A stretch of DNA of 33,552 nucleotides from Gammaproteobacteria bacterium (lineage in GTDB: Bacteria; Pseudomonadota; Gammaproteobacteria; Pseudomonadales; Azotimanducaceae): assembly GCA_018645845.1 (NCBI GenBank), contig JABGVY010000541.1, positions 1 through 33,552 of the forward strand, given 5' to 3'. This document shows positions 17,971 to 30,343 of the stretch, piece by piece. Both the position numbers and the translations under genes were made by a program. The notes beneath the pieces are model-generated. The model did not search any database and had not been told where the DNA came from. It saw only the letters and a program-made list of their open reading frames with translations. The stretch's first letter is position 1; every line of letters starts with the position of its first letter.

Positions 17971-18771
17971 CTAAACAAAATCAACCTCAATGGAACCTGA
18001 TTTTCCATAATCAGCAAAGACACGATCCCCCGCCTTCACAGGCACGGGCCTTGTAAACGAGCCGGAGAGAATAACCTGGCCAGGCTCAAGGGCGATTCCA
18101 TGCGGAGCGAATCGTTTGCACACCCAGCGGATACCATGTGCAGGATGGCCCATCACCGCCGCGCCCATACCTGAATCTTCAATCTCATCATTAAGATAGA
18201 GCAAAGAACCAGCCCATTTGAGATCTATATCCTCCGGCGCAACTTTCTCGCCACCACAAATTATCCCGGCATTCGCCGCATTGTCAGCAATAGTGTCACA
18301 CACATTTCGGGTATAGCCCGTTTCAGGATCGACCCGACGACTTCTAGCCGAAATGAGTTCAAGCGCGGGCTGTACATAATCCGTGGCGTCCATCACCTCT
18401 TGAATAGAAACATTGTCTCCAAAAAGTCGCTTTTTCATCACGAACGCAAATTCTGATTCAATTCGCGGATCTAAATAATCTGCGGCTTTAAGCTTCGATT
18501 GATTTGGGAACAGCATCGCATCTGTCAGCACACCGTAATCCGGCGTATCGATATTCATCGCAACTTGCATCGTGCGCGAGGTCAGGCCGATCTTATATCC
18601 AATAATTTTTTCGCCATCCCTCAGCCTGCTGTCTATCCAGGCTTTTTGAATAGCATAGGCGTCGTCCATGTCCATACTAAAAGACATCGATAGCGCCTTA
18701 ATTTGTTCATGTTTCTTTTCCGCCTGGTACAGACGATCCGCCGCATCCGTAATCTGTTGTTGGGTCAACAT
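17971..18771 (-). CDS. hpaH: 2-oxo-hept-4-ene-1,7-dioate (OHED) hydratase
   Basis: A 266-residue protein of the hydratase/decarboxylase branch of the FAH superfamily, close to the 267 residues of enterobacterial HpaH. The visible hallmarks are 'GYKIGLTSRTMQ', the metal-binding 'RIESEFAFVMKK' acidic motif and 'PALELISARSR'. The enzyme adds water to 2-oxo-hept-4-ene-1,7-dioate in the homoprotocatechuate pathway. It is the fourth gene of the hpaE-hpaD-hpaF-hpaH series, with one base between the hpaF stop and its start. The HpaI aldolase that acts next is not in the window. Confidence 0.92.
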   Translation of the reverse strand: MLTQQQITDAADRLYQAEKKHEQIKALSMSFSMDMDDAYAIQKAWIDSRLRDGEKIIGYKIGLTSRTMQVAMNIDTPDYGVLTDAMLFPNQSKLKAADYLDPRIESEFAFVMKKRLFGDNVSIQEVMDATDYVQPALELISARSRRVDPETGYTRNVCDTIADNAANAGIICGGEKVAPEDIDLKWAGSLLYLNDEIEDSGMGAAVMGHPAHGIRWVCKRFAPHGIALEPGQVILSGSFTRPVPVKAGDRVFADYGKSGSIEVDFV

Positions 18772-19167: not shown

Positions 19168-20016
19168 CTAAACCGGAAACTCAACATTGATTTGCCCCGT
19201 GCCAGAGCTGCCAAAGTAAGGACTGATAACCTCTGCCTTACCTCGGTACTGATCCCACCCTAATGCACCCAGCAACATTGCAGTGTCGTGCATAAATCCT
19301 TCACCGTGACACTTGTTCGCATACTCGGGCAATATTTCCGTGAAGCGTTCCCAGTCACCGTTCTGCCACATTTCAATCACACGATGGTCAAATTCTTCCA
19401 AAAAGGGAGACCAGACTTTATGCAAAAACTCATCGGCGGTACCATTTTGTGCAAACCTGTGTGACAAGGACCCAGAAGCGAATATGGCAACTTTACCGTC
19501 ATAATCATTTTCGATAGCCGACCGAAGCGCCCTTCCCGCGGTCGCGCTATCCTTCAGGTCATGCACCATAAGCAAAGAGGCAATTGAAACCACTTTGAAG
19601 TGCCGGTCTTCATTCATATAGCGCATAGGGACCAGGCTGCCGTATTCTAAACTCAAGCTGGTATCCTCATGAGCCCGCATGGACACCCCTGCTTTTGTGA
19701 CAGCATCTGCAATCAGGTGGCCAAGTTCAGGGTTACCATCATATTCGTAAGGTAAATTTTTAATGAAGTGAGGTAATTCGTTACTTGTATAGATTCCTTT
19801 AAAAAGCGGCGCGTTGTTCAGGTGATAGCCTGAATTGACTAACCAATGTGTATCAAACACAACAATCGTATCAACACCCAGAGCGCGACACCGTCTTGAA
19901 ATTTCCCGATGGCCTTCGATCGCGTGATCTCTGCAACCCTTGTGCGGCCCATCCATCTCAGACAGATACATAGAGGGGACATGCGTAATTTTAGCTGCGT
20001 AGGCGAGTTCGCCCAT
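19168..20016 (-). CDS. hpaD: 3,4-dihydroxyphenylacetate (homoprotocatechuate) 2,3-dioxygenase
   Basis: A 282-residue extradiol dioxygenase of the LigB (type II/class III) family, the ring-cleaving step that turns homoprotocatechuate into 5-carboxymethyl-2-hydroxymuconate semialdehyde. Probable iron ligands are His12 ('KITHVPS'), His57 ('FDTHWLV') and Glu239 ('CHGEGF'). The 'LSHRFAQNGTADEF' region holds the conserved second-sphere histidine. Length agrees with HpaD/HpcB proteins. It lies 31 bp after hpaE and 26 bp before hpaF, so one transcript is likely. Confidence 0.93.
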   Translation of the reverse strand: MGELAYAAKITHVPSMYLSEMDGPHKGCRDHAIEGHREISRRCRALGVDTIVVFDTHWLVNSGYHLNNAPLFKGIYTSNELPHFIKNLPYEYDGNPELGHLIADAVTKAGVSMRAHEDTSLSLEYGSLVPMRYMNEDRHFKVVSIASLLMVHDLKDSATAGRALRSAIENDYDGKVAIFASGSLSHRFAQNGTADEFLHKVWSPFLEEFDHRVIEMWQNGDWERFTEILPEYANKCHGEGFMHDTAMLLGALGWDQYRGKAEVISPYFGSSGTGQINVEFPV

Positions 20017-20047: not shown

Positions 20048-21577
20048 CTATCTACCCAAGACGGGTACATTGTGAAGGTCATGTGCAATACAAACGTTCT
20101 TGGTTTCCATGTAAAAATCGAAACTAAAGTCACCTCCGTCCCGACCTATCCCGCTGGCTTTCATGCCACCAAAGGGTGATGGCAGGTTCCTGTTATTCTC
20201 GGAATTAAACCAGAGCATACCCGCCTCCAAATTCTTTGCCAGACGCATTGTTCTCCCCACATCTTTAGTCCAGACATACCCAGCCAGTCCGTACGGCGTA
20301 TCATTAGCCATCCGAACGGCATCTTCTTCTGAATCAAATGTCATCGCCGTCAACACCGGGCCAAATATCTCTTCTCTTGCGACCCGCATACTGTTATCGG
20401 CCTCTGTGAATAGAGTCGGGCAAATATAATTACCATCACCCAGGGTTTCTATTGCATAACCACCTACGGCTGTTGTTGCACCATCGCTTTTCGCGACATC
20501 CATATAACTCATGACTTTTTGAAAATGCGCCCGGCTGACAACCGGCCCTACCTCTGTCTCAGGATCAAGGGGATGACCGACCTTCAGGTTTTCTACCCTT
20601 TCTTTAAGCGCAGCCATAAACTCAGCCTGGATCCCCTGTTGCACCAACAACCTTGAACTCGACGTACAACGCTGACCGTTAAGGCTGTAAAGCATAAACA
20701 CCACGGCGTCCAGCGCACGGTCAAAATCGGCATCATCAAAAACGATGACAGGGTTTTTACCACCCAACTCAAAGTGAACGCGTTTTAGCGTATCGGCAGC
20801 CTGGCGCATGATATGCGTGCCGGTAGCACTTTCACCGACTAACGCGACAGCTTTGATTGCCGGGTGTTCTGTCAACCGTTTACCCGCGGTTTCACCAAAG
20901 CCATTGACGGTATTTAGGACACCATCCGGAATCCCTGCCTCTTTGGCAACTTCAGCCAACAGCAGCGCACTCAGAGGTGACATTTCCGCAGGTTTGTGCA
21001 CAACAGTACAGCCCGCCGCAAGTGCCGGTGCAATTTTCCAGGTCGATAGCATAAACGGTGTATTCCACGGCGTGATAACACCCACCGGCCCTACCGGCAT
21101 TCGCATGGTGTAATTGGTATGAACATCCTGGTAAAGCGCTTGGCCATTGACAGCTTCAGGCGCTTTGTCAGCAAAAAAACGAAAGTTGTCTGCTCCCCTG
21201 AGTGCCGCCTGCTTCATAAATCGAATTGGCTGCCCACAGTCCATCGATTCGATCAGTGCGATTTCCTCTGCACGCGCGGCAATTTTGTCTGCAAAGTGGT
21301 TAAGCAGTTTCTTACGAGCGGCTCCAGACATATCCCGCCAGTCGGCGAAAGCAGCCTTGGCGGCATCACAAGCCCGGTCTATATCCTGATTACTACCGGA
21401 CACAACCTTACCGAGTGTTGTATTGTCAACGGGTGTAAAGTTCTCAAAGGTCTCAGCGTTTGTGGGCACTTCAAATTGGCCGTTGATGAAATGCCCTGTG
21501 ATATTCTCACTAAATCTTTGCAGATAAGATTTCGCTTTGCCCAGATTTTCCTCATTGCTCACTTTGTTGTTCGACAT
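20048..21577 (-). CDS. hpaE: 5-carboxymethyl-2-hydroxymuconate semialdehyde dehydrogenase
   Basis: A 509-residue NAD-dependent aldehyde dehydrogenase. The active-site Glu270 ('FELGGKNP') and Cys304 ('GQRCTSSSR') are intact, and 'GVITPWNTPFMLSTWKIAPALAAGC' matches the cofactor-binding region. Gene context (directly before hpaD, hpaF and hpaH) identifies it as the enzyme oxidising the ring-cleavage semialdehyde. It is the first gene of the minus-strand operon and is divergent from the hpaG-like gene, with candidate regulator sites in the 117-bp gap. Confidence 0.93.
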   Translation of the reverse strand: MSNNKVSNEENLGKAKSYLQRFSENITGHFINGQFEVPTNAETFENFTPVDNTTLGKVVSGSNQDIDRACDAAKAAFADWRDMSGAARKKLLNHFADKIAARAEEIALIESMDCGQPIRFMKQAALRGADNFRFFADKAPEAVNGQALYQDVHTNYTMRMPVGPVGVITPWNTPFMLSTWKIAPALAAGCTVVHKPAEMSPLSALLLAEVAKEAGIPDGVLNTVNGFGETAGKRLTEHPAIKAVALVGESATGTHIMRQAADTLKRVHFELGGKNPVIVFDDADFDRALDAVVFMLYSLNGQRCTSSSRLLVQQGIQAEFMAALKERVENLKVGHPLDPETEVGPVVSRAHFQKVMSYMDVAKSDGATTAVGGYAIETLGDGNYICPTLFTEADNSMRVAREEIFGPVLTAMTFDSEEDAVRMANDTPYGLAGYVWTKDVGRTMRLAKNLEAGMLWFNSENNRNLPSPFGGMKASGIGRDGGDFSFDFYMETKNVCIAHDLHNVPVLGR

Positions 21578-21694: not shown

Positions 21695-22573
21695 ATGCGC
21701 TTTCTCTCTTTCATGAATGGCCACCATTCCGCTCAATCCCATAGCTCCTGGGGCGCCATTACGGAGCAGGGAATCATTGACCTCGGCGGACGAATGAAAT
21801 GCGACTTCAAGCAGGCCATTAGTAGTGGTCGCCTGAATGAGGCGCAAGAGCTCGCTTCCGGGCTATCGCCTGATGTAAACACTGATGAGATCACCTATCT
21901 TCCACCTGTTGCTAATCCCGAAAAAATTGCCTGCATTGGCGTCAATTACGCTAACCGGAACGCTGAGTATAAAGACGGATCCAAAGAAGCAAAATTTCCG
22001 AGTCTCTTTATGCGAACACCCGATTCCTTGGTAGGCCATGGTCATCATCTGCTGCGACCACCTGAGTCAGACCAATTGGATTATGAAGGCGAGATTGTCG
22101 TCATCATAGGTCAGGGGGGTCGCCGCATATCAGAAGACAATGCCTATGATCATATCGCAGGGCTCACTATTATGAACGAGGGGACGATCCGGGACTGGCT
22201 AAGGCATTCTAAATTTAATGTTACGCAGGGTAAGAACTTTTACCATTCTGGTAGCGTCGGCCCCTGGATGGTCACCGCCGATGAATTCACCCCCGCCCTC
22301 TACGAGGATATGACCGTGAGAACTCGGGTCAACGGCGAAGAACGGCAGCACGATACAACCAACAACATGACCTTCCCAATCAAGTACCTGATCGCGTATA
22401 TGTCACAGTTTTTCAATCTAAAACCCGGGGATATGATTGCCACTGGGACGCCCAATGGTGCCGGCGCTCGATTCGAGCCCCCACGCTACCTGAAACCAGG
22501 TGACGTTGTTGAAGTTGAGGTTGAAGGAGTCGGCATCCTGTCGAATGAGGTTATAGATGAGGTTGTTGAATAG
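21695..22573 (+). CDS. FAH-family isomerase/decarboxylase, HpaG-like
   Basis: A 292-residue fumarylacetoacetate-hydrolase-superfamily protein. The metal-binding acidic motif 'DYEGEIVVIIG' and the 'KNFYHSGSVGPWMV' and 'GDMIATGTPNG' segments are present. In the homoprotocatechuate pathway this superfamily supplies HpaG, which decarboxylates 5-oxo-pent-3-ene-1,2,5-tricarboxylate and isomerises the product. Enterobacterial HpaG is a fusion of two such domains of about 430 residues, whereas this has only one. It may do both steps, or a second subunit may be encoded elsewhere. It faces hpaE across a shared promoter region and its stop codon lies in a 12-bp tandem repeat. Confidence 0.82.
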   Translation: MRFLSFMNGHHSAQSHSSWGAITEQGIIDLGGRMKCDFKQAISSGRLNEAQELASGLSPDVNTDEITYLPPVANPEKIACIGVNYANRNAEYKDGSKEAKFPSLFMRTPDSLVGHGHHLLRPPESDQLDYEGEIVVIIGQGGRRISEDNAYDHIAGLTIMNEGTIRDWLRHSKFNVTQGKNFYHSGSVGPWMVTADEFTPALYEDMTVRTRVNGEERQHDTTNNMTFPIKYLIAYMSQFFNLKPGDMIATGTPNGAGARFEPPRYLKPGDVVEVEVEGVGILSNEVIDEVVE

Positions 22574-22641: not shown

Positions 22642-23097
22642 GTGACTAGCTCACAAAACGAAACACTGCGCGCATTTGATCGCTCACTGCCCATGGCATT
22701 ACTACGTGCCAGGGAAGCAGTCATGAAAAAATTCACTCCTTCATTACGCGAAAACGGTCTATCACCGCAACAGTGGCGGGTCATTAGGGCTCTGAATGAA
22801 GAGGCAGGGCTCGACATCACAGAATTAGCAAATAGATGTTTCTTGCTAATGCCCAGCCTTTCACGAATCATCCAAAACTTGGAGAAACGTGAGCTGGTCA
22901 GTCGAAACCAGTCTTCATTAGACAATCGAAAATCGGTTATATCAATCACTGGGTCTGGCAAGAAACTGTTTCAAAAGATCGCGCCAAAATCAGTTGAACG
23001 CTATGACCTGATAACTGAAAAATTTGGCTACGGTAAGCTTGAGTTACTTTACGAATTGTTAGACGAGTTGATTGAAAAAATTGATGAGAAAGACTAA
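22642..23097 (+). CDS. hpaR: MarR-family regulator of the homoprotocatechuate pathway
   Basis: A 151-residue MarR-type winged-helix repressor starting at GTG, with TAGAGG about six bases upstream. The N-terminal 'LPMALLRAREAVMKKFTPSL', 'LSPQQWRVIRAL' and 'FLLMPSLSRIIQNLEKRELVSR' segments closely parallel enterobacterial HpaR, including the recognition helix and the wing ('SLDNRKSVISITGSG'). HpaR-type proteins repress the hpa operon and respond to pathway aromatics. It is downstream of the hpaG-like gene and 23 bp before the P450. The divergent region at 21578-21694 contains its likely sites. Confidence 0.88.
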   Translation: MTSSQNETLRAFDRSLPMALLRAREAVMKKFTPSLRENGLSPQQWRVIRALNEEAGLDITELANRCFLLMPSLSRIIQNLEKRELVSRNQSSLDNRKSVISITGSGKKLFQKIAPKSVERYDLITEKFGYGKLELLYELLDELIEKIDEKD

Positions 23098-23120: not shown

Positions 23121-24431
23121 ATGAACAACGATAAGGACGACGCCTACCACAAGATCAGTGTTCCACCTGCGACCCAACCAACCGGATGCCCTGTTGATTC
23201 TTCGTTCACACCATTTGACGAAGACTATCTGGCTAATCCATACCCCCAGCTTGAAGCCTTGATGTCGGACAAACCTATTTTCTATGCCGAAGAACTCGGC
23301 TACCTGGTGGTGACGGGAATGGATAACGTCACGGCAGTATTAAAGAACCACGAAGTCTTTTCATCGGAGAATGTTCAAGACCCTGTTTTCCCGGTCTGTG
23401 AAAAAGCCACCGCAGTGATGTCCGCCGCCGACTATAACCCGAAAGCAGTGATGTCGAATTGCCAGCAACCCGACCACACTCGAATCCGCAAGCACAGCCG
23501 TGATGGTTTTAACGCGCGCCGCATGAACCTGCTCGAACCCTACATCCGCGAGACGACCTCCGATTTAATTTCTCAAATGATCGCCGGTGGACAACAATCG
23601 GAAGTTGTTTCTTCTCTAGCACATGCTCTGCCAGGACGGGTAATTTTCCGGCTTATTGGTTTTCCGGAAATTGACGATGAGCAGCTAATCTTCTGGACTT
23701 CAAACCGTCTGATCTTCACCTGGGGCAAACCCACCGATAAGGCACAGACACAAATTGCGGAGAACATGCTGAAATATTGGCGGTATTGCCGGGAATTTGT
23801 TGCTCAAAAAGACAAGGCGCCCGCAGACGATCTTACCTCTGAATTACTAGCGGCTCACAAAGCAGACCCCGAAGGCCTTACTTACCGTGAGGTGGAGTCG
23901 ATCATTTACGGTCTGTCATTCGCTGGGCATGAGATCGTCAGCAACTTTATTTCTCTAACACTCATGAACATTCTTCCCGAACGGGAGCATTGGGAGGCGT
24001 TAGTCAATGACCCGTCACTCATACCCAATGCGCTGGAAGAGATCCTACGAGCCGATTCGCCGCAAACCAGCTGGCGGCGGGTCGCCACTCAGGATACGCA
24101 TCTAGATGGCGTCGACATTCCCAAAGGCACCAGAATTTTCGTCAGTCTGGGTGCAGCCAATCATGATCCAGCGCTTTTTCCTACACCATCGAAATTCATT
24201 CCAGACCGAAATAACGCGAACAAACATATTTCTTTTGGCCACGGTATCCATTTCTGCCTGGGCGCCAGGCTTGCTCGTCTTGAAGCTCAAATCGCAATTG
24301 AGATACTCGCTAAGCGACTTCCTAAACTGCGTCTGGTAGAAAACCAAGAATTATCATTTGCGCCGAACATTACATTTCGAGGACCTTCCACACTGTACGT
24401 AGAATGGGATAAACCAGACGAACAAACATAA
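23121..24431 (+). CDS. Cytochrome P450
   Basis: A 436-residue soluble bacterial P450. The haem-thiolate loop 'FGHGIHFCLGARLARLE' gives Cys379 as the iron ligand, and the K-helix ExxR motif is 'EEILRAD'. In the I-helix, the usual AGx(D/E)T oxygen-activation motif reads 'AGHEIV', so the conserved threonine is replaced. It follows hpaR by 23 bp and precedes an aromatic-acid transporter, so it is plausibly part of the same transcript. It could hydroxylate or demethylate an aromatic precursor of homoprotocatechuate. It needs a ferredoxin and reductase, neither of which is nearby. Confidence 0.92.
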   Translation: MNNDKDDAYHKISVPPATQPTGCPVDSSFTPFDEDYLANPYPQLEALMSDKPIFYAEELGYLVVTGMDNVTAVLKNHEVFSSENVQDPVFPVCEKATAVMSAADYNPKAVMSNCQQPDHTRIRKHSRDGFNARRMNLLEPYIRETTSDLISQMIAGGQQSEVVSSLAHALPGRVIFRLIGFPEIDDEQLIFWTSNRLIFTWGKPTDKAQTQIAENMLKYWRYCREFVAQKDKAPADDLTSELLAAHKADPEGLTYREVESIIYGLSFAGHEIVSNFISLTLMNILPEREHWEALVNDPSLIPNALEEILRADSPQTSWRRVATQDTHLDGVDIPKGTRIFVSLGAANHDPALFPTPSKFIPDRNNANKHISFGHGIHFCLGARLARLEAQIAIEILAKRLPKLRLVENQELSFAPNITFRGPSTLYVEWDKPDEQT

Positions 24432-24519: not shown

Positions 24520-25791
24520 ATGATTGTGGCCCTTTGTCTTATCTTCAATATGGTTGACGGCTTCGACATTACCGCAATGGCGGTGACTGCCCACCAAATC
24601 GCTGAGGAAATGCAATTGAGCGCAGAAAAACTTGGTCTTGTGTTCAGTTTCTCTCTTGCAGGCATGATGATGGGGGCAATGTTTCTAGCAACCTTTTCCG
24701 ACATCATCGGTCGGCGAACCATGATTATCATCACACTATTACTGGTCGGCTCAACGGTATTACTCACGGCAACGGTCAACTCCTTCCCCATGCTCATCGT
24801 TCTCCGGTTTGTCAGTGGACTCGGTGCCGGTGCCATGCTGGCCTGTGTGGCAACACTCGCCGCCGAATACAGTCCCGAGCGTTATCGCGCACTTTCGGTG
24901 ACCGCCGTCACCTCTGGGTACCCACTGGGCGCTATGATGACGGGGCTTGTCGCTTCCAGTGTCGTACCAGAATTTGGCTGGCGCGGCATGTTCATCGCCG
25001 GTGGCTCGATAACAGTAGTCCTGGCACTAATCGCCTTTACGCTCATTCCAGAATCCCTACATTTCCTTTGTAACAAACAACCAAAAGGTGCATTACAAAA
25101 GGTCAACAAGATCATCGCTATGTTTTCAGTTCAACCCTTGTCGCAACTACCCACCAGGGGATCAGGCAAAGAAAACACCGCAGCTGATCGCGCCAGTAGC
25201 CTGCAAAAAGTCATGTCGCTGTTAACACCGGCATTAAGACGCTCTACCCTAATGCTCTGGGGAACATTTTTCCTCTGTATCAGCACGCTTTACTTTCTGA
25301 TGAGCTGGACTCCCAAACTCATCATTAACCTGGGTTACGACATAGAGGCAGGTAACCTGGCATTCACGCTATTCAATTTCGGTGGGGTTCTAGGAATATA
25401 CGCTCTCGGTTGGCTGGCAACCAGATGGTCACTCTCGACCCTGATTAGCATCTTTGCGATTACCGCTGCGATACTCATGTGGTTCTTTGCTGCGGCAGCA
25501 TATTTTGCAGCGGCTAAAACCATCCTTATGGCGCTCATTTTTGTTATTGGGATCAGCTTACAAGGCGGGTTCACCGGCATGTACGCCGTGGCCGCCAAAC
25601 TCTATCCTGCTGAAATAAGAAGTACCGGTGTCGGCTGGGCAATTGGCCTTGGGCGCTTTGGCGCTGTACTTGGGCCAGGCATTGCGGGTTATATGATTGC
25701 CATGGGCGTTTCCATCACCGCGAACTTCCTGGTCTTCGCAATACCCATGTTAATCGGTGGGATTTTCGCCTACAAATTGCGCGTGAGTTAA
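24520..25791 (+). CDS. MFS aromatic-acid transporter (AAHS-type)
   Basis: From the first ATG this is a 423-residue 12-helix transporter. The 'FNMVDGFDITAMAV' first helix, 'FSDIIGRRTMIII' loop and 'GLGAGAMLACVATLAAEYSPERYR' segment match the aromatic acid:H+ symporter group. The frame is open for another 23 codons upstream and encodes a family-like N-terminal tail ('STNISELIDHGNFSGRQI'), preceded by a GGCGGGG ribosome-like site. There is no ATG, GTG or TTG in that part; ATC at 24454 is at the right distance. The true start may therefore be 24454, but 24520 is the first normal codon. It likely imports the aromatic substrate of the hpa region. Confidence 0.85.
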   Translation: MIVALCLIFNMVDGFDITAMAVTAHQIAEEMQLSAEKLGLVFSFSLAGMMMGAMFLATFSDIIGRRTMIIITLLLVGSTVLLTATVNSFPMLIVLRFVSGLGAGAMLACVATLAAEYSPERYRALSVTAVTSGYPLGAMMTGLVASSVVPEFGWRGMFIAGGSITVVLALIAFTLIPESLHFLCNKQPKGALQKVNKIIAMFSVQPLSQLPTRGSGKENTAADRASSLQKVMSLLTPALRRSTLMLWGTFFLCISTLYFLMSWTPKLIINLGYDIEAGNLAFTLFNFGGVLGIYALGWLATRWSLSTLISIFAITAAILMWFFAAAAYFAAAKTILMALIFVIGISLQGGFTGMYAVAAKLYPAEIRSTGVGWAIGLGRFGAVLGPGIAGYMIAMGVSITANFLVFAIPMLIGGIFAYKLRVS

Positions 25792-26002: not shown

Positions 26003-27298
26003 ATGTGGGATTTTGAAACCGATGAAGAATACCAGGGCGTATTATCCTGGGCTGATGATTTTGTAACCAAGAAGGTAGAGCCACTCGATATGGTTCTGGG
26101 AGCTACCAAAGAATACCAGGATCCCGATTTCATCCGACAGATTCGACCTCTACAACAGGAGGTTAAAGAACGTGGTCTCTGGGCCTGTCACCTTGGTCCA
26201 GAATTGGGTGGACTGGGATTCGGCCAACTGAAACTCGCATTGCTCAACGAAATCCTCGGTCGATCCAGGTTTGCACCGGTAGTTTTTGGTTGCCAGGCGC
26301 CAGATACTGGCAACGCTGAAATACTCGCTCACTATGGGACCGAAGAAATCAAGAAGGAGTACCTGCAACCGCTTCTGGATGGGGAAGTTTCTTCAAGCTA
26401 TTCCATGACAGAACCCCAGGGCGGTTCTGACCCAACTCAGTTTCAGTGCCGCGCTACAGAGGATGGTGATCACTTCGTCATCAATGGCGAGAAGTGGTTT
26501 TCTTCCAGCGCAAGATATGCAAGTTTCCTGATCACGATGACCGTGACAGATCCGGACGCTGCGCCTCATCAACGCATGTCAATGTTCGTCGTACCTACCA
26601 ATACTCCTGGCGTGAATATCATTCGCAATGTGGGAGTTGGCACTGAAGCCCCCGGCGAAGGTTCACATGCCTATATCAAATATGACAACGCCAGGGTGCC
26701 AAAATCCAACATGCTGGGACCGAGGGGCCAGGCCTTCGCGGTTTCCCAGACACGCCTGGGTGGCGGCCGTATCCACCATGCGATGAGATCTATGGGACAA
26801 ATCAAAGTTGCCTTTGACATGATGTGTAAGCGCGCACTATCCCGGACCACAAAGGGTGAACCTTTGGCGAACAAACAGATGGTTCAGGAAAAAATTGCCG
26901 ATTCCTGGATAGAAATGGAGCAGTTCAGGCTATTGGTACTTCGCACTGCCTGGCGTATTGATCAATACAACGATTATATGAAGGTGCGAAAGGATATAGC
27001 AGCAATAAAAGCGCTAATGCCAAAAGTGTATCACGATGTCATCTCTCGCTGCATCCAAATCCATGGATCTCTGGGAGTGTCCAACGAACTGCCGCTGTCC
27101 GGCATGTTGCTCGGCTCTTACGTCATGGGCATTGCTGATGGCCCAACTGAGGTTCACAAAGTAACAGTCGCGCGTCAAATCTTACGTGACTACGAGGGAA
27201 CCGACGCACTCTTCCCTGATTACACATTGCCGAATCGACAGGCTGATGCGATTGCCCAGTTCGGCGACCAGATTGAGCGGGAGGTCGAGGCCTGGTAG
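26003..27298 (+). CDS. Acyl-CoA dehydrogenase (ACAD10/11-like)
   Basis: A 431-residue FAD-dependent acyl-CoA dehydrogenase with a clear AGGAGCAGG ribosome site. The 'YSMTEPQGGSDPTQFQ' substrate/FAD segment, 'FVINGEKWFSSSA' and the C-terminal 'IQIHGSLGVSNELPL' are present. The residue aligned to the catalytic glutamate of medium-chain enzymes is Asp, in 'GIADGPTEVHK', as in the ACAD10/11 branch. It introduces a 2,3-double bond into an acyl-CoA and passes electrons to ETF. Substrate is unknown. It is monocistronic as far as can be seen, with a tandem repeat upstream. Confidence 0.9.
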   Translation: MWDFETDEEYQGVLSWADDFVTKKVEPLDMVLGATKEYQDPDFIRQIRPLQQEVKERGLWACHLGPELGGLGFGQLKLALLNEILGRSRFAPVVFGCQAPDTGNAEILAHYGTEEIKKEYLQPLLDGEVSSSYSMTEPQGGSDPTQFQCRATEDGDHFVINGEKWFSSSARYASFLITMTVTDPDAAPHQRMSMFVVPTNTPGVNIIRNVGVGTEAPGEGSHAYIKYDNARVPKSNMLGPRGQAFAVSQTRLGGGRIHHAMRSMGQIKVAFDMMCKRALSRTTKGEPLANKQMVQEKIADSWIEMEQFRLLVLRTAWRIDQYNDYMKVRKDIAAIKALMPKVYHDVISRCIQIHGSLGVSNELPLSGMLLGSYVMGIADGPTEVHKVTVARQILRDYEGTDALFPDYTLPNRQADAIAQFGDQIEREVEAW

Positions 27299-27396
27299 CA
27301 GGCTCGTACGGCGTGGGACCTTGTGAGTGCAACCACGTACCACTAGAATCGCACGTGTCATCTGAGGCTACGGTGGGCTACCAAGGCAGGGAAGGC

Positions 27397-27768
27397 TCAA
27401 ATCGCCGGGTCCGGACACCACCGTAATCGATAGACAAACAGATACAGACACAATACCGCGAAAGTGCCATGCAGGATAACATCGACAAATAGCTCATCCG
27501 CAATTGCCAGCGCAACAGCGATGGCCAGGTGAAAGCTAAAGAGGATACCCAACACCGCACCTGCGGCCGTAAAGCTATCCCTATGGGGCCAAGTCCAGAA
27601 AACGGCACTGCCAACCGCAAGAGCCACAAACCCATAATTCCAGGACCACAACACCGCGCTGGCATTTCCTGCATCGACAAGGAATTCCGGCGCAGCAAAC
27701 AGAGCAAATGCACCAGCGCTTTCAATCAATAAATTCGCGATAAGAACAGCAGAATAGACTTTTTTCAT
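27397..27768 (-). CDS. Small membrane protein of unknown function
   Basis: A 123-residue protein with about four predicted membrane helices, beginning 'MKKVYSAVLIANLLIESAGAF'. A second helix pair lies around 'FVALAVGSAVFW' and 'AVLGILFSFHLAIAVALAIA', and the last helix is followed by a short basic tail. The pattern resembles small DoxX-like or DUF4345-like four-helix proteins, but I cannot assign a family. It is on the minus strand, convergent with the acyl-CoA dehydrogenase gene and divergent from the dehalogenase-like gene. Confidence 0.65.
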   Translation of the reverse strand: MKKVYSAVLIANLLIESAGAFALFAAPEFLVDAGNASAVLWSWNYGFVALAVGSAVFWTWPHRDSFTAAGAVLGILFSFHLAIAVALAIADELFVDVILHGTFAVLCLYLFVYRLRWCPDPAI

Positions 27769-28008
27769 GTTCTGAGGCCGTCAATTGGTCATGGCCCTTT
27801 TTTAGCAGTAATGGCAGGATACGAGCAAGCGGGAATCCGGGCAACTGGTTCCTACCTGGCGGCAGCCATTTGTTCATTGCTTGCCTGAGGACTCAAGTAT
27901 AGCCCCACCCTACTCTTCAAACGAACAAGCGAATCGCCAAGCCTGGCTCACCAATTTGTGAATCGTGAATTTGGTGGCATGATGGTTATTCTGTGAACGA
28001 GGCATGAC

Positions 28009-28998
28009 ATGGCTAAATCTCCATACAAACCTTACACCCCTAAACCAGAGCAAATGGCTTTGGTACCTGAGGTGTCCGGAAATACCATTAATGGCCTGGG
28101 TGAAACCGAATTTCGGCAACCCAAGCATGTTTACTGGAGTGAGCCTGAGAACATACCCCATGGCGGCCTTCAAAAATTCTTTTTTGAGCAGAACCCTGAT
28201 AATCCTGCGATCGTCGAAGCACGCGCCAACCGCGATGAGCTCACGGCCGCAGATGTCGCCCCCGTCAGCGGCCCTCCCCTGCAACAATCCGCACAGCAGT
28301 GGTCACAACAATTGGCTGAATATGCTGAAACCATTGAACTGGAGCTTTTCGGGATTACTGCATTCAACCCAGACTGGGCGTTTGAAGGCGTAGAGCTGGA
28401 TTACCAATGGGTCATTGTGATTGGTGTCGCGCACGACTACGAAAAAATCAAAACAGCACCACAGGATATCGCGGGCGCCGAAGTCATACGCCAGTATGGT
28501 AGGGCCAAAAAAGCCAGCAAAGACGTGGCGACCTGGATAAGAAATCGCGGCTGGGACTCATTTGCAAACACCGGCCCCATGGCAGGCACCATGGTAATGA
28601 TTCCTGCTGCCATTGAATGCGGCTTTGGTGAGCTGGGCAAACACGGTTCCATCATTAGCAAGGAATACGGATCTTCGTTCCGGCTCTCTTGTGTGCTCAC
28701 TAATGCGCCATTGATCCCAACTCCTCGCCAAAGCTATCACGTAGACGATTTTTGCAGCCGCTGCCGAGTTTGTGAAAGTGCTTGTCCACCCGGGGCAATT
28801 GGTCCCGAGAAGGTCACTGTTCGAGGGAACGAAAAATGGTATGTGGACTTCGACAAATGCATCCCATTTTTTAATGAAAATTACGGCTGCTCTATCTGTA
28901 TTTCAAGCTGCCCCTGGAGTATTCCCGATAGGGGGCCGAGAATAGTGGAGCAACTGCTACGGCGAAAAGAAAAGCTGAGTAGTTTGGTTGATGAATAA
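28009..28998 (+). CDS. Reductive-dehalogenase-like protein with two [4Fe-4S] clusters
   Basis: A 329-residue cytoplasmic protein related to the catalytic (RdhA) domain of corrinoid-dependent reductive dehalogenases. Two cluster motifs are seen: Cys249, 252, 255, 259 and Cys284, 294, 297, 301, the second in the 'GCSICISSCPW' form typical of RdhA. The segment 'IECGFGELGKHGSIISKEYGSSFRLSCVLTNAPL' (in pieces) matches the RdhA core before the ferredoxin-like part. It lacks a TAT signal and the fused reductase domain of aerobic NpRdhA-type proteins, so external electron donors would be needed. QueG-type epoxyqueuosine reductase is a more distant relative. It is followed after 31 bp by an aromatic amino acid transporter gene. 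Confidence 0.8.
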   Translation: MAKSPYKPYTPKPEQMALVPEVSGNTINGLGETEFRQPKHVYWSEPENIPHGGLQKFFFEQNPDNPAIVEARANRDELTAADVAPVSGPPLQQSAQQWSQQLAEYAETIELELFGITAFNPDWAFEGVELDYQWVIVIGVAHDYEKIKTAPQDIAGAEVIRQYGRAKKASKDVATWIRNRGWDSFANTGPMAGTMVMIPAAIECGFGELGKHGSIISKEYGSSFRLSCVLTNAPLIPTPRQSYHVDDFCSRCRVCESACPPGAIGPEKVTVRGNEKWYVDFDKCIPFFNENYGCSICISSCPWSIPDRGPRIVEQLLRRKEKLSSLVDE

Positions 28999-29029
28999 CT
29001 CCTCACTTCAATGACATTGAAAAATTGCA

Positions 29030-30274
29030 ATGAATAGACCATCCCCCCCTCTTTTCCATGGTGTCGTGCTAGTGACTAGCGCCACTATTGGTGCTGGCAT
29101 TTTTTCCTTACCGGTTGTCTCCGCAGGGATGTGGTTTACATGGACCGCTGCCTGTCTATTTGCGGTTTGGTTGCTCAGCTATCTGGGCGCCTTGCTGTTG
29201 TTGGAAGCGACTCTGGTTTTTCCTCGCGGTGCCAATTTATACACCATTGTTAACGGGATACTGGGTGCAAAATGGAATCTGGCGACCTCGATTGGCATGG
29301 CATTTCTGATGTACATTCTGATTTATGCTTATATCAGCGCGGGGGGCAATATTGTCAATCACTCTTTTGCCTCCATTACCGGTGGCGAAAGTCCACTATC
29401 ACAAAATATCTCGAGCCTTTTGTTCGCGACTTTTTTCGCCACATTGATCTGGTTTGGCACCACCCTGGTCAGCCGTCTTTGCACCGTGCTAGTAATTGGA
29501 ATGGCTATCAGTTACCTATTATTCAATTCTGGCCTGGTGCTACATGTAGAAATGTTCAAGCTCTTCGGTACCCAGGTAGACGGAGAGCGCTATAGTCATT
29601 ACATCTGGGCAGCCCTACCTTACTTCCTGACTTCCTTTGGGTTTGCCGGCCTGGTTCCCAGCCTGGTGAAGTACTATGGCTCAGAACCCACGACAGTACT
29701 GCGTTGCATACTCTACGGCACCCTGATCACTCTCGGGCTTTATCTAATCTGGATTTTGGTGGCTTTTGGTACCCTATCACGCGGCTCTTGGGTGCCAGTA
29801 ATTACCGCGGGCGGTAATATTGCAGACCTCATCGTCGGCTTCCAGGGCGTGACTGAAGCCTACAGCCAAAACATGAGCCTGCTGTTGAACTTGTTTTCCA
29901 ATTTCGCCGTGACGTCTTCCATATCAGCCGTCGGTCTTGTCATGTTCGACTATATAAGCGATGCCTTTGGTTTTGACAATGATGCAACTGGGCGACTCAA
30001 AAGCCTGTTGATTGCTTTCGGACCACCGGCACTGGTCTGCCTGTTTTTTCCCCACGGGTTCATCGTGGCCATTGGTTACGCCGGCCTTGTTATGATTTTC
30101 GGTTATTTTGTCGTGCCGGCGCGGCTGGTACTGAAGCTGCGTTCGGACCAGCTTGAAACCCCATTCCGCGTTTGGGGTGGCAACCCGCTTGTCTACGGGG
30201 TTCTCGCTTTCAGCCTTCTTATCGGCGTGTTCGAGGTCATGTCGATGTTTAACGCACTGCCTGTTTATCCATAG
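29030..30274 (+). CDS. Aromatic amino acid transporter (HAAAP family, TyrP/Mtr-like)
   Basis: A 414-residue transporter with about 11 membrane helices. The N-terminal 'ATIGAGIFSLPVVSAGMWFTW' helix (in two parts) and 'YISAGGNIVNHSF' are characteristic of the hydroxy/aromatic amino acid permease family, whose known members import tyrosine, tryptophan or serine/threonine by proton symport. It lies 31 bp after the reductive-dehalogenase-like gene, so they are probably co-transcribed, and a terminator follows it. The pairing suggests that the imported compound is the substrate of the Fe-S protein. Confidence 0.88.
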   Translation: MNRPSPPLFHGVVLVTSATIGAGIFSLPVVSAGMWFTWTAACLFAVWLLSYLGALLLLEATLVFPRGANLYTIVNGILGAKWNLATSIGMAFLMYILIYAYISAGGNIVNHSFASITGGESPLSQNISSLLFATFFATLIWFGTTLVSRLCTVLVIGMAISYLLFNSGLVLHVEMFKLFGTQVDGERYSHYIWAALPYFLTSFGFAGLVPSLVKYYGSEPTTVLRCILYGTLITLGLYLIWILVAFGTLSRGSWVPVITAGGNIADLIVGFQGVTEAYSQNMSLLLNLFSNFAVTSSISAVGLVMFDYISDAFGFDNDATGRLKSLLIAFGPPALVCLFFPHGFIVAIGYAGLVMIFGYFVVPARLVLKLRSDQLETPFRVWGGNPLVYGVLAFSLLIGVFEVMSMFNALPVYP

Positions 30275-30311
30275 AACCTCGGGTTTCTGGCTCTGGACTC
30301 AGCTAATTGAG

Positions 30312-30343
30312 TGTCCGGCTTCGCCCGGCACCCTTCTTTTTTT
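30312..30343 (+). terminator. Rho-independent terminator
   Basis: An 8-bp stem with one mismatch and one wobble, TGTCCGGC/GCCCGGCA around a TTC loop, is followed by a CTTCTTTTTTT tract. It is 37 bases after the stop of the amino acid transporter gene and ends the dehalogenase-like/transporter unit. Confidence 0.75.

Follow-up and report, generated by a model that had tools for sequence, protein, structure and literature searches.

A short RdhA-like gene beside an aromatic amino acid permease gene in a gammaproteobacterial genome, and a possible role in the use of halogenated aromatic amino acids

Results

In the present study, a stretch of 33,552 nucleotides (contig JABGVY010000541.1, here called the window) from a gammaproteobacterial genome was analysed. 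Two open reading frames, encoding a 329-aa protein and a 414-aa membrane protein, were confirmed on its plus strand with a gap of 31 bp between them. The genes and features around them are as follows, with profile scores given against curated cutoffs; "syntenic" refers to a sister species described below.

17971-18771, minus strand: HpaH, 2-oxohept-4-ene-1,7-dioate hydratase (TIGR02312, 371 against 351.5)
19168-20016, minus strand: HpaD, 3,4-dihydroxyphenylacetate 2,3-dioxygenase (TIGR02298, 454 against 316)
20048-21577, minus strand: HpaE, 5-carboxymethyl-2-hydroxymuconate semialdehyde dehydrogenase (TIGR02299, 803 against 638)
21695-22573, plus strand: HpaG-like or FAA hydrolase-family protein (TIGR02303, 174 bits, below the cutoff of 276; syntenic)
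22642-23097, plus strand: MarR-like regulator (named from its translation alone; syntenic)
23121-24431, plus strand: cytochrome P450 (PF00067; syntenic)
24520-25791, plus strand: MFS transporter, closest to the aromatic acid/H+ symporters of TIGR00895 (below cutoff; syntenic)
26003-27298, plus strand: acyl-CoA dehydrogenase-like gene upstream of the pair (Pfam; syntenic, 98% amino acid identity, omega 0.032)
28009-28998, plus strand: short RdhA-like protein of 329 aa, a putative corrinoid/[4Fe-4S] reductase, predicted to be cytoplasmic
29030-30274, plus strand: aromatic amino acid permease of the Mtr/TnaB/TyrP family
30311-30340, plus strand: possible weak terminator, a hairpin with a T-run

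The original prediction described a TAT-less RdhA-like gene with both [4Fe-4S] motifs, lying 31 bp before a TyrP/Mtr-type transporter, with a terminator closing the pair. The reading frames, the motifs and the gap were all confirmed. As for the terminator, there is a hairpin at about 30311-30331 with a T-run behind it, but its fold is weak (-10.1 kcal/mol, z -1.0), the pattern scan did not list it, and it is absent in the sister species, whose homology stops 3 bp past the permease stop codon. No Rfam family matched in the region. A 574-bp stretch (27356-27929), which contains a 123-aa reverse reading frame, is present in the window between the genes for the acyl-CoA dehydrogenase and the RdhA-like protein; in the sister species its place is taken by about 50 bp.

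The transporter assignment also held. The permease matched PF03222 at 350.6 bits and passed TIGR00837 (araaP) with 358.3 against a curated cutoff of 350; it fell below all three equivalog cutoffs (Mtr 352 against 515, TnaB 255 against 497, TyrP 187 against 482), so that no specificity is assigned to it; its score is closer to Mtr than to TyrP. It was the only PF03222 member found in its own genome, which is 76% complete.

The RdhA-like protein matched the reductive dehalogenase family TIGR02486 with an E-value of 3.7e-27 and 96 bits, below the curated cutoff of 160.35, and gave no match to the dehalogenase domain PF13486 at E<=0.01. It also matched the 4Fe-4S dicluster family Fer4_7, and its two Fe-S motifs are C249-x2-C252-x2-C255-x3-C259-P and C284-x9-C294-x2-C297-x3-C301-P. 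There was no twin-arginine (RR) motif within the first 45 residues and no RdhB-like partner beside the gene, the next gene being the permease. Among solved structures, a PDB sequence search placed PceA and NpRdhA as the best relatives, with QueG weaker.

In order to define the family, 60 sequences of about 330 aa, the window protein among them, were gathered from the class of the window and from other genomes of Proteobacteria. Among the loci that carry a name are those of Gammaproteobacteria, Rhodobacteraceae and Kordiimonadaceae. Y163, R225 and seven of the eight Fe-S cysteines do not vary in the 59 full-length rows, and the eighth cysteine is kept in 58. Y163 aligns with Y246 of PceA and Y426 of NpRdhA, and R225 with R305 of PceA and K488 of NpRdhA. 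Tyr246 and Arg305 are active-site residues of PceA (PMC5500849), and Y426, K488 and R552 are the key residues of NpRdhA (PMC10463259). The position of R552 is occupied by Phe in the window protein, by Trp in RdhAs of about 400 aa, and by Arg in all four NpRdhA-type references. The window protein also carries K211 where most RdhA references have arginine. The QueG protein of the same genome has Tyr and Phe at the positions aligned to Y163 and R225. The DYH motif, a feature of QueG (PMC4646009), is present in this QueG and absent from all short-family sequences collected. A QueG identity for the RdhA-like protein was therefore rejected, since it has no DYH and carries Arg225 instead of Phe.

In two trees the short family formed its own clade, apart from the PceA, NpRdhA and BhbA references in the first (support 92/91) and from the 400-aa RdhAs in the second (99/99), with the root uncertain in both because the QueG and PceA branches are long. 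Two AF2 models were built, a poor one with five sequences and a slightly better one of the core only; both are of low confidence (pLDDT 49.5 and 60.9). In Foldseek searches both models matched PceA-type RdhAs best, with NpRdhA next and QueG and B12 chaperones after it; as regards a corrinoid-binding pocket, these low-confidence models thus match corrinoid-containing RdhA and QueG structures. Judged by its sequence, the window protein is a member of an undescribed short RdhA-like clade. We did not file it as RdhA proper because of its score (96 against 160 bits) and the separate short clade. The label "RdhA-like" of the original prediction is borne out by the Fe-S cysteines and the Tyr/Arg pair, but the name "RdhA" needs qualifying.

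The same features could be read in another way, in which the protein, as a corrinoid/[4Fe-4S] reductase of the RdhA/QueG superfamily, would carry out a reduction other than dehalogenation in the metabolism of aromatic amino acids. The clade lies below the RDH cutoff, lacks PF13486 and stands alone in the trees, K211 replaces the usual arginine, its gene neighbours are very varied, and QueG is a superfamily member with other chemistry (PMC4646009). The Tyr and Arg pair is nevertheless that of dehalogenases and unlike that of QueG, DYH is absent, and better-scoring relatives with the same types of neighbour do pass the RDH cutoff. We consider this explanation unlikely.

Two further RdhA or RdhA-like genes were noted in the genome of the window, one encoding an NpRdhA-type protein of 724 aa (L003, G000:C429; G and L numbers are our labels for genomes and loci) and one a second short RdhA-like protein beside an NSS transporter and a P450 (L030, G000:C388).

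Conservation of the pair, whose absence the original prediction had named as a refutation, was then considered. In the sister species (G1066; locus L005, contig JABJED010000144.1), the block from HpaE to the permease is kept at 89% DNA identity, with amino acid identities of 94% for the RdhA-like protein and 91% for the permease. All tested genes of the block are under purifying selection between the two species (omega 0.03-0.14; RdhA-like 0.087, permease 0.116). The exact pair is common only to the window and this one sister species. Most RdhA-like genes of the short clade have no adjacent aromatic amino acid transporter, and across about 50 loci of the clade no conserved partner was found, the neighbours being diverse. 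The only other short-clade locus with a permease (L031) has it about 4 kb off and lies beside a phenol 2-monooxygenase, and another relative (L112) adjoins a Rieske dioxygenase. No relatives were found in viral contigs, and plasmids yielded only distant RdhAs. The exact pair was given up as the unit of conservation because it is too narrow; an association emerges only when all RdhA subfamilies are compared.

Some other arrangements within the short clade were observed. A same-phylum genome of 2.4 Mb, listed as 100% complete (G636), carries at least eight short RdhA-like genes, five of them in tandem (L039:6858-12889, L040, L041). In three loci (L078, L080 and L099, of G836, G922 and G734) a class I/II aminotransferase gene overlaps the start of the short RdhA-like gene, and in L080 the two form one frame of 726 aa, by a frameshift or a fusion.

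For the wider comparison, 207 genomes of the family were searched for the permease (E<=1e-60) and for all RDH-like genes. The Trp/Tyr permease was found in only seven of them, and therefore both genes are patchy. Five of these seven permeases have an RdhA gene at a distance of 3.4 kb or less (the window, the sister species, G170, G215 and G1064), and they represent three lineages. In G170 and G215 the permease and RdhA genes overlap on the same strand. The probability of this co-localisation under random placement was about 8e-12, or about 3e-7 with lineages counted once, and with the window lineage excluded two of the four other lineages co-localise (p about 5e-5); these values are guides, because the distance of 3.4 kb was picked after seeing the data. 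Although the literal pair is shared with one sister species only, the association of RdhA with the permease recurs independently and is not random. The genomes are mostly metagenome-assembled, with varying completeness and contamination (some partners are 6-9% contaminated), which could affect genus labels but leaves same-contig linkage unaffected by binning.

These data bear on the possibility of accident, in which a stand-alone RdhA-like gene happens to lie beside a housekeeping Trp/Tyr permease. The patchiness of both genes and the restriction of the exact pair to two closely related genomes are what one would expect of it. On the other hand, it does not account for the co-localisation of five of seven permeases, which persists without the window lineage, for the overlapping genes of G170 and G215, or for the purifying selection and the edge of synteny at the permease end. 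We therefore regard accidental adjacency as very unlikely.

The RdhAs of G170, G215 and G1064 belong to another subfamily of about 400 aa, in which PF13486 is present, and are about 25% identical to the window protein; that of G170 passes TIGR02486 at 176.9 bits. In G1064 (L130:7024-11028) genes for a MarR regulator, PrnB (PF08933, 595 bits), a class-V PLP enzyme and the Trp/Tyr permease follow one another in an operon that is divergent from the RdhA gene. In the synthesis of pyrrolnitrin, PrnB acts on chlorotryptophan. The same PrnB locus in the sister genome (G1066, L170:4181-4339) keeps the RdhA, PrnB and PLP genes, with similarity to the permease over its first 53 residues only.

Other RdhA loci have a different transporter. 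A 400-aa RdhA accompanies an NSS/SNF sodium-dependent transporter and homogentisate dioxygenase (HmgA, TIGR01015, 633 against 511) in three species of a single genus (G192, G1073, G1074; L165, L167-L169), and an FAA hydrolase joins them in loci long enough to show it. In the genome of the window (L030) and in two congeners (L175, L176), a second short RdhA-like gene stands end to end with that of an NSS protein 68-70% identical to the HmgA-linked one. NSS members are not all aromatic-specific; because of its homogentisate neighbours, the NSS protein of these loci may carry tyrosine.

Two genomes of a further class of Proteobacteria, probably Alphaproteobacteria, have a 400-aa RdhA gene that is operonic with or divergent from genes for kynureninase (TIGR01814) and tryptophan 2,3-dioxygenase (TIGR03036), all above their cutoffs (L192, L199), and in G914 the RdhA and kynureninase genes overlap. 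The linked genes extend over L199:7363-10666 and L192:5434-13424, and L192 also has an indolepyruvate oxidoreductase. Other 400-aa RdhA loci of that class are without such genes or lie beside prephenate dehydrogenase and HisC; in L200 (1808-5096) and L203 the HisC-type aminotransferase and prephenate dehydrogenase genes are directly upstream of the RdhA gene. An uncharacterised protein of about 305 aa with a signal-peptide-like N-terminus is encoded directly after the 400-aa RdhA in five loci (L165:8481-9401, L167-L169, L130:4792-5709), and its L165 copy has no Pfam or NCBIfam match. In the RdhAs of L130 and L165 the Fe-S motifs occupy residues 283-294 and 337-345, as reported for Ros_A3X954, an RdhA from Roseobacter with debrominating activity on 2,6-dibromophenol (PMC13101508).

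Discussion

The neighbours of these RdhA loci support aromatic amino acids as the substrate class. Transporter families are common to different RdhA clades, and a single clade occurs with two unrelated ones (the Trp/Tyr permease and NSS) as well as with Tyr/Trp catabolic genes. Most simply, these RdhAs would act on halogenated aromatic amino acids or on early products of them. Since such pairings recur in separate lineages, often by genes of tyrosine or tryptophan breakdown, the pair of the window probably takes in and dehalogenates halogenated amino acids. To the more definite proposal that the two genes make up an uptake-and-reduction unit for halogenated aromatic amino acids, we give about an even chance. 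The original prediction had offered halogenated tyrosine or tryptophan as a speculation; it has now gained genomic support from the recurrent loci, but most of the short clade lies without such neighbours.

In the proposed mechanism, the permease would import a halogenated aromatic amino acid of the Tyr or Trp type, in which the halogen is most likely bromine. In the cytoplasm the RdhA-like enzyme would use base-off cobalamin and two [4Fe-4S] clusters, with electrons from a separate reductase or ferredoxin, to strip the halogen reductively from the amino acid or from an early breakdown product. Ortho-halogenated phenols are the substrates of all catabolic RdhAs that have been characterised (PMC10463259), which fits 3-halotyrosine, itself such a phenol. 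Halotryptophan is not an ortho-halogenated phenol, so the enzymes of the tryptophan-linked loci may act at a different position or after hydroxylation.

The dehalogenated skeleton would then enter ordinary aromatic catabolism, perhaps through the adjacent homoprotocatechuate ring-cleavage genes. Such a sink had been foreseen in the original prediction, and HpaD, HpaE and HpaH do pass their equivalog cutoffs, but the linking hydroxylase was not identified: neither HpaB nor a complete route from tyrosine to homoprotocatechuate was found in the 76%-complete genome of the window. The P450 or another oxygenase could take the place of HpaB.

The same genes lend themselves to a second explanation. 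Here the enzyme would reductively dehalogenate aromatic acids or phenols, such as 3-bromo-4-hydroxyphenylacetate; these would enter via the upstream MFS transporter and be degraded by the homoprotocatechuate genes, and the permease would be a loosely related neighbour. The HpaD, HpaE and HpaH genes, the P450 and the MFS transporter lie in the same region, the syntenic block holds the HpaG-like, P450, MFS and acyl-CoA dehydrogenase genes, some relatives adjoin the phenol 2-monooxygenase or the Rieske dioxygenase, and the known preference of catabolic RdhAs is for ortho-halogenated phenols. This explanation gives no account of the repeated adjacency of RdhA genes to Trp/Tyr permeases, NSS transporters, tryptophan 2,3-dioxygenase, kynureninase and HmgA, and it seems to us rather unlikely. 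Some points do stand against the uptake and dehalogenation of halogenated amino acids: the window protein is distant from the RdhA type with Tyr/Trp catabolic neighbours (about 25% identity), most short-clade genes have no aromatic amino acid transporter as a neighbour, the aromatic-acid-type MFS offers an alternative substrate supply, Phe replaces the R552 equivalent, and neither HpaB nor a full route from tyrosine was found in the incomplete genome.

More broadly, it is suggested that marine Proteobacteria have an undescribed aerobic route for halogenated tyrosine and tryptophan, in which cytoplasmic B12-type dehalogenases of at least two clades work with aromatic amino acid importers and feed homogentisate, kynurenine or homoprotocatechuate catabolism, and that the window pair is its short-clade version; we place this idea a little short of an even chance. 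Marine sponges are a well-known source of brominated tyrosine derivatives (PMC6409637, PMC3229238), but no bacterial catabolic route for halogenated Tyr/Trp using a B12-type dehalogenase was found in the open-access literature searched. Many cytoplasmic RdhAs are annotated but orphan, and for these the recurrent loci offer a definite hypothesis on the substrate; if it is true, reductive dehalogenation would reach into the aerobic turnover of amino acids in the sea and into bromine/iodine cycling.

Comparison with known systems

Like NpRdhA, BhbA and JtRdhA, which it matches in sequence and fold searches, the window protein is predicted to be cytoplasmic, TAT-less and equipped with two [4Fe-4S] motifs and a catalytic Tyr with a basic residue (K488 in NpRdhA, Arg here). 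It differs from them in its length of about 330 aa, in having neither the N-terminal duplicated domain nor the C-terminal reductase, in the Phe at the R552 position and in its separate clade. With Ros_A3X954 it shares a short, single-domain, TAT-less cytoplasmic architecture, and the L130 and L165 RdhAs, which have the same Fe-S motif positions as Ros_A3X954, share the aromatic amino acid neighbours; in contrast to this clade, the window protein is about 70 aa shorter, lacks a PF13486 match and is only about 25% identical.

With PceA of Sulfurospirillum multivorans and Desulfitobacterium, which gave the best Foldseek matches, the window protein shares the equivalents of Y246 and R305 and the Fe-S motifs, but it has no TAT signal, no RdhB-like partner beside its gene and a much shorter N-terminus. 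QueG belongs to the same superfamily, with the catalytic Tyr and two [4Fe-4S] clusters, but the window protein lacks DYH and has Arg225 where the QueG encoded separately in its genome has Phe. The permease is a full-length match to the Mtr/TnaB/TyrP permeases (TIGR00837) above the curated cutoff, yet stands under the cutoffs of all three individual equivalogs. Finally, iodotyrosine deiodinase (IYD) would carry out the same net reaction on halotyrosines as the one proposed for the window enzyme, but it is a flavin enzyme of unrelated mechanism, with no corrinoid or Fe-S clusters.
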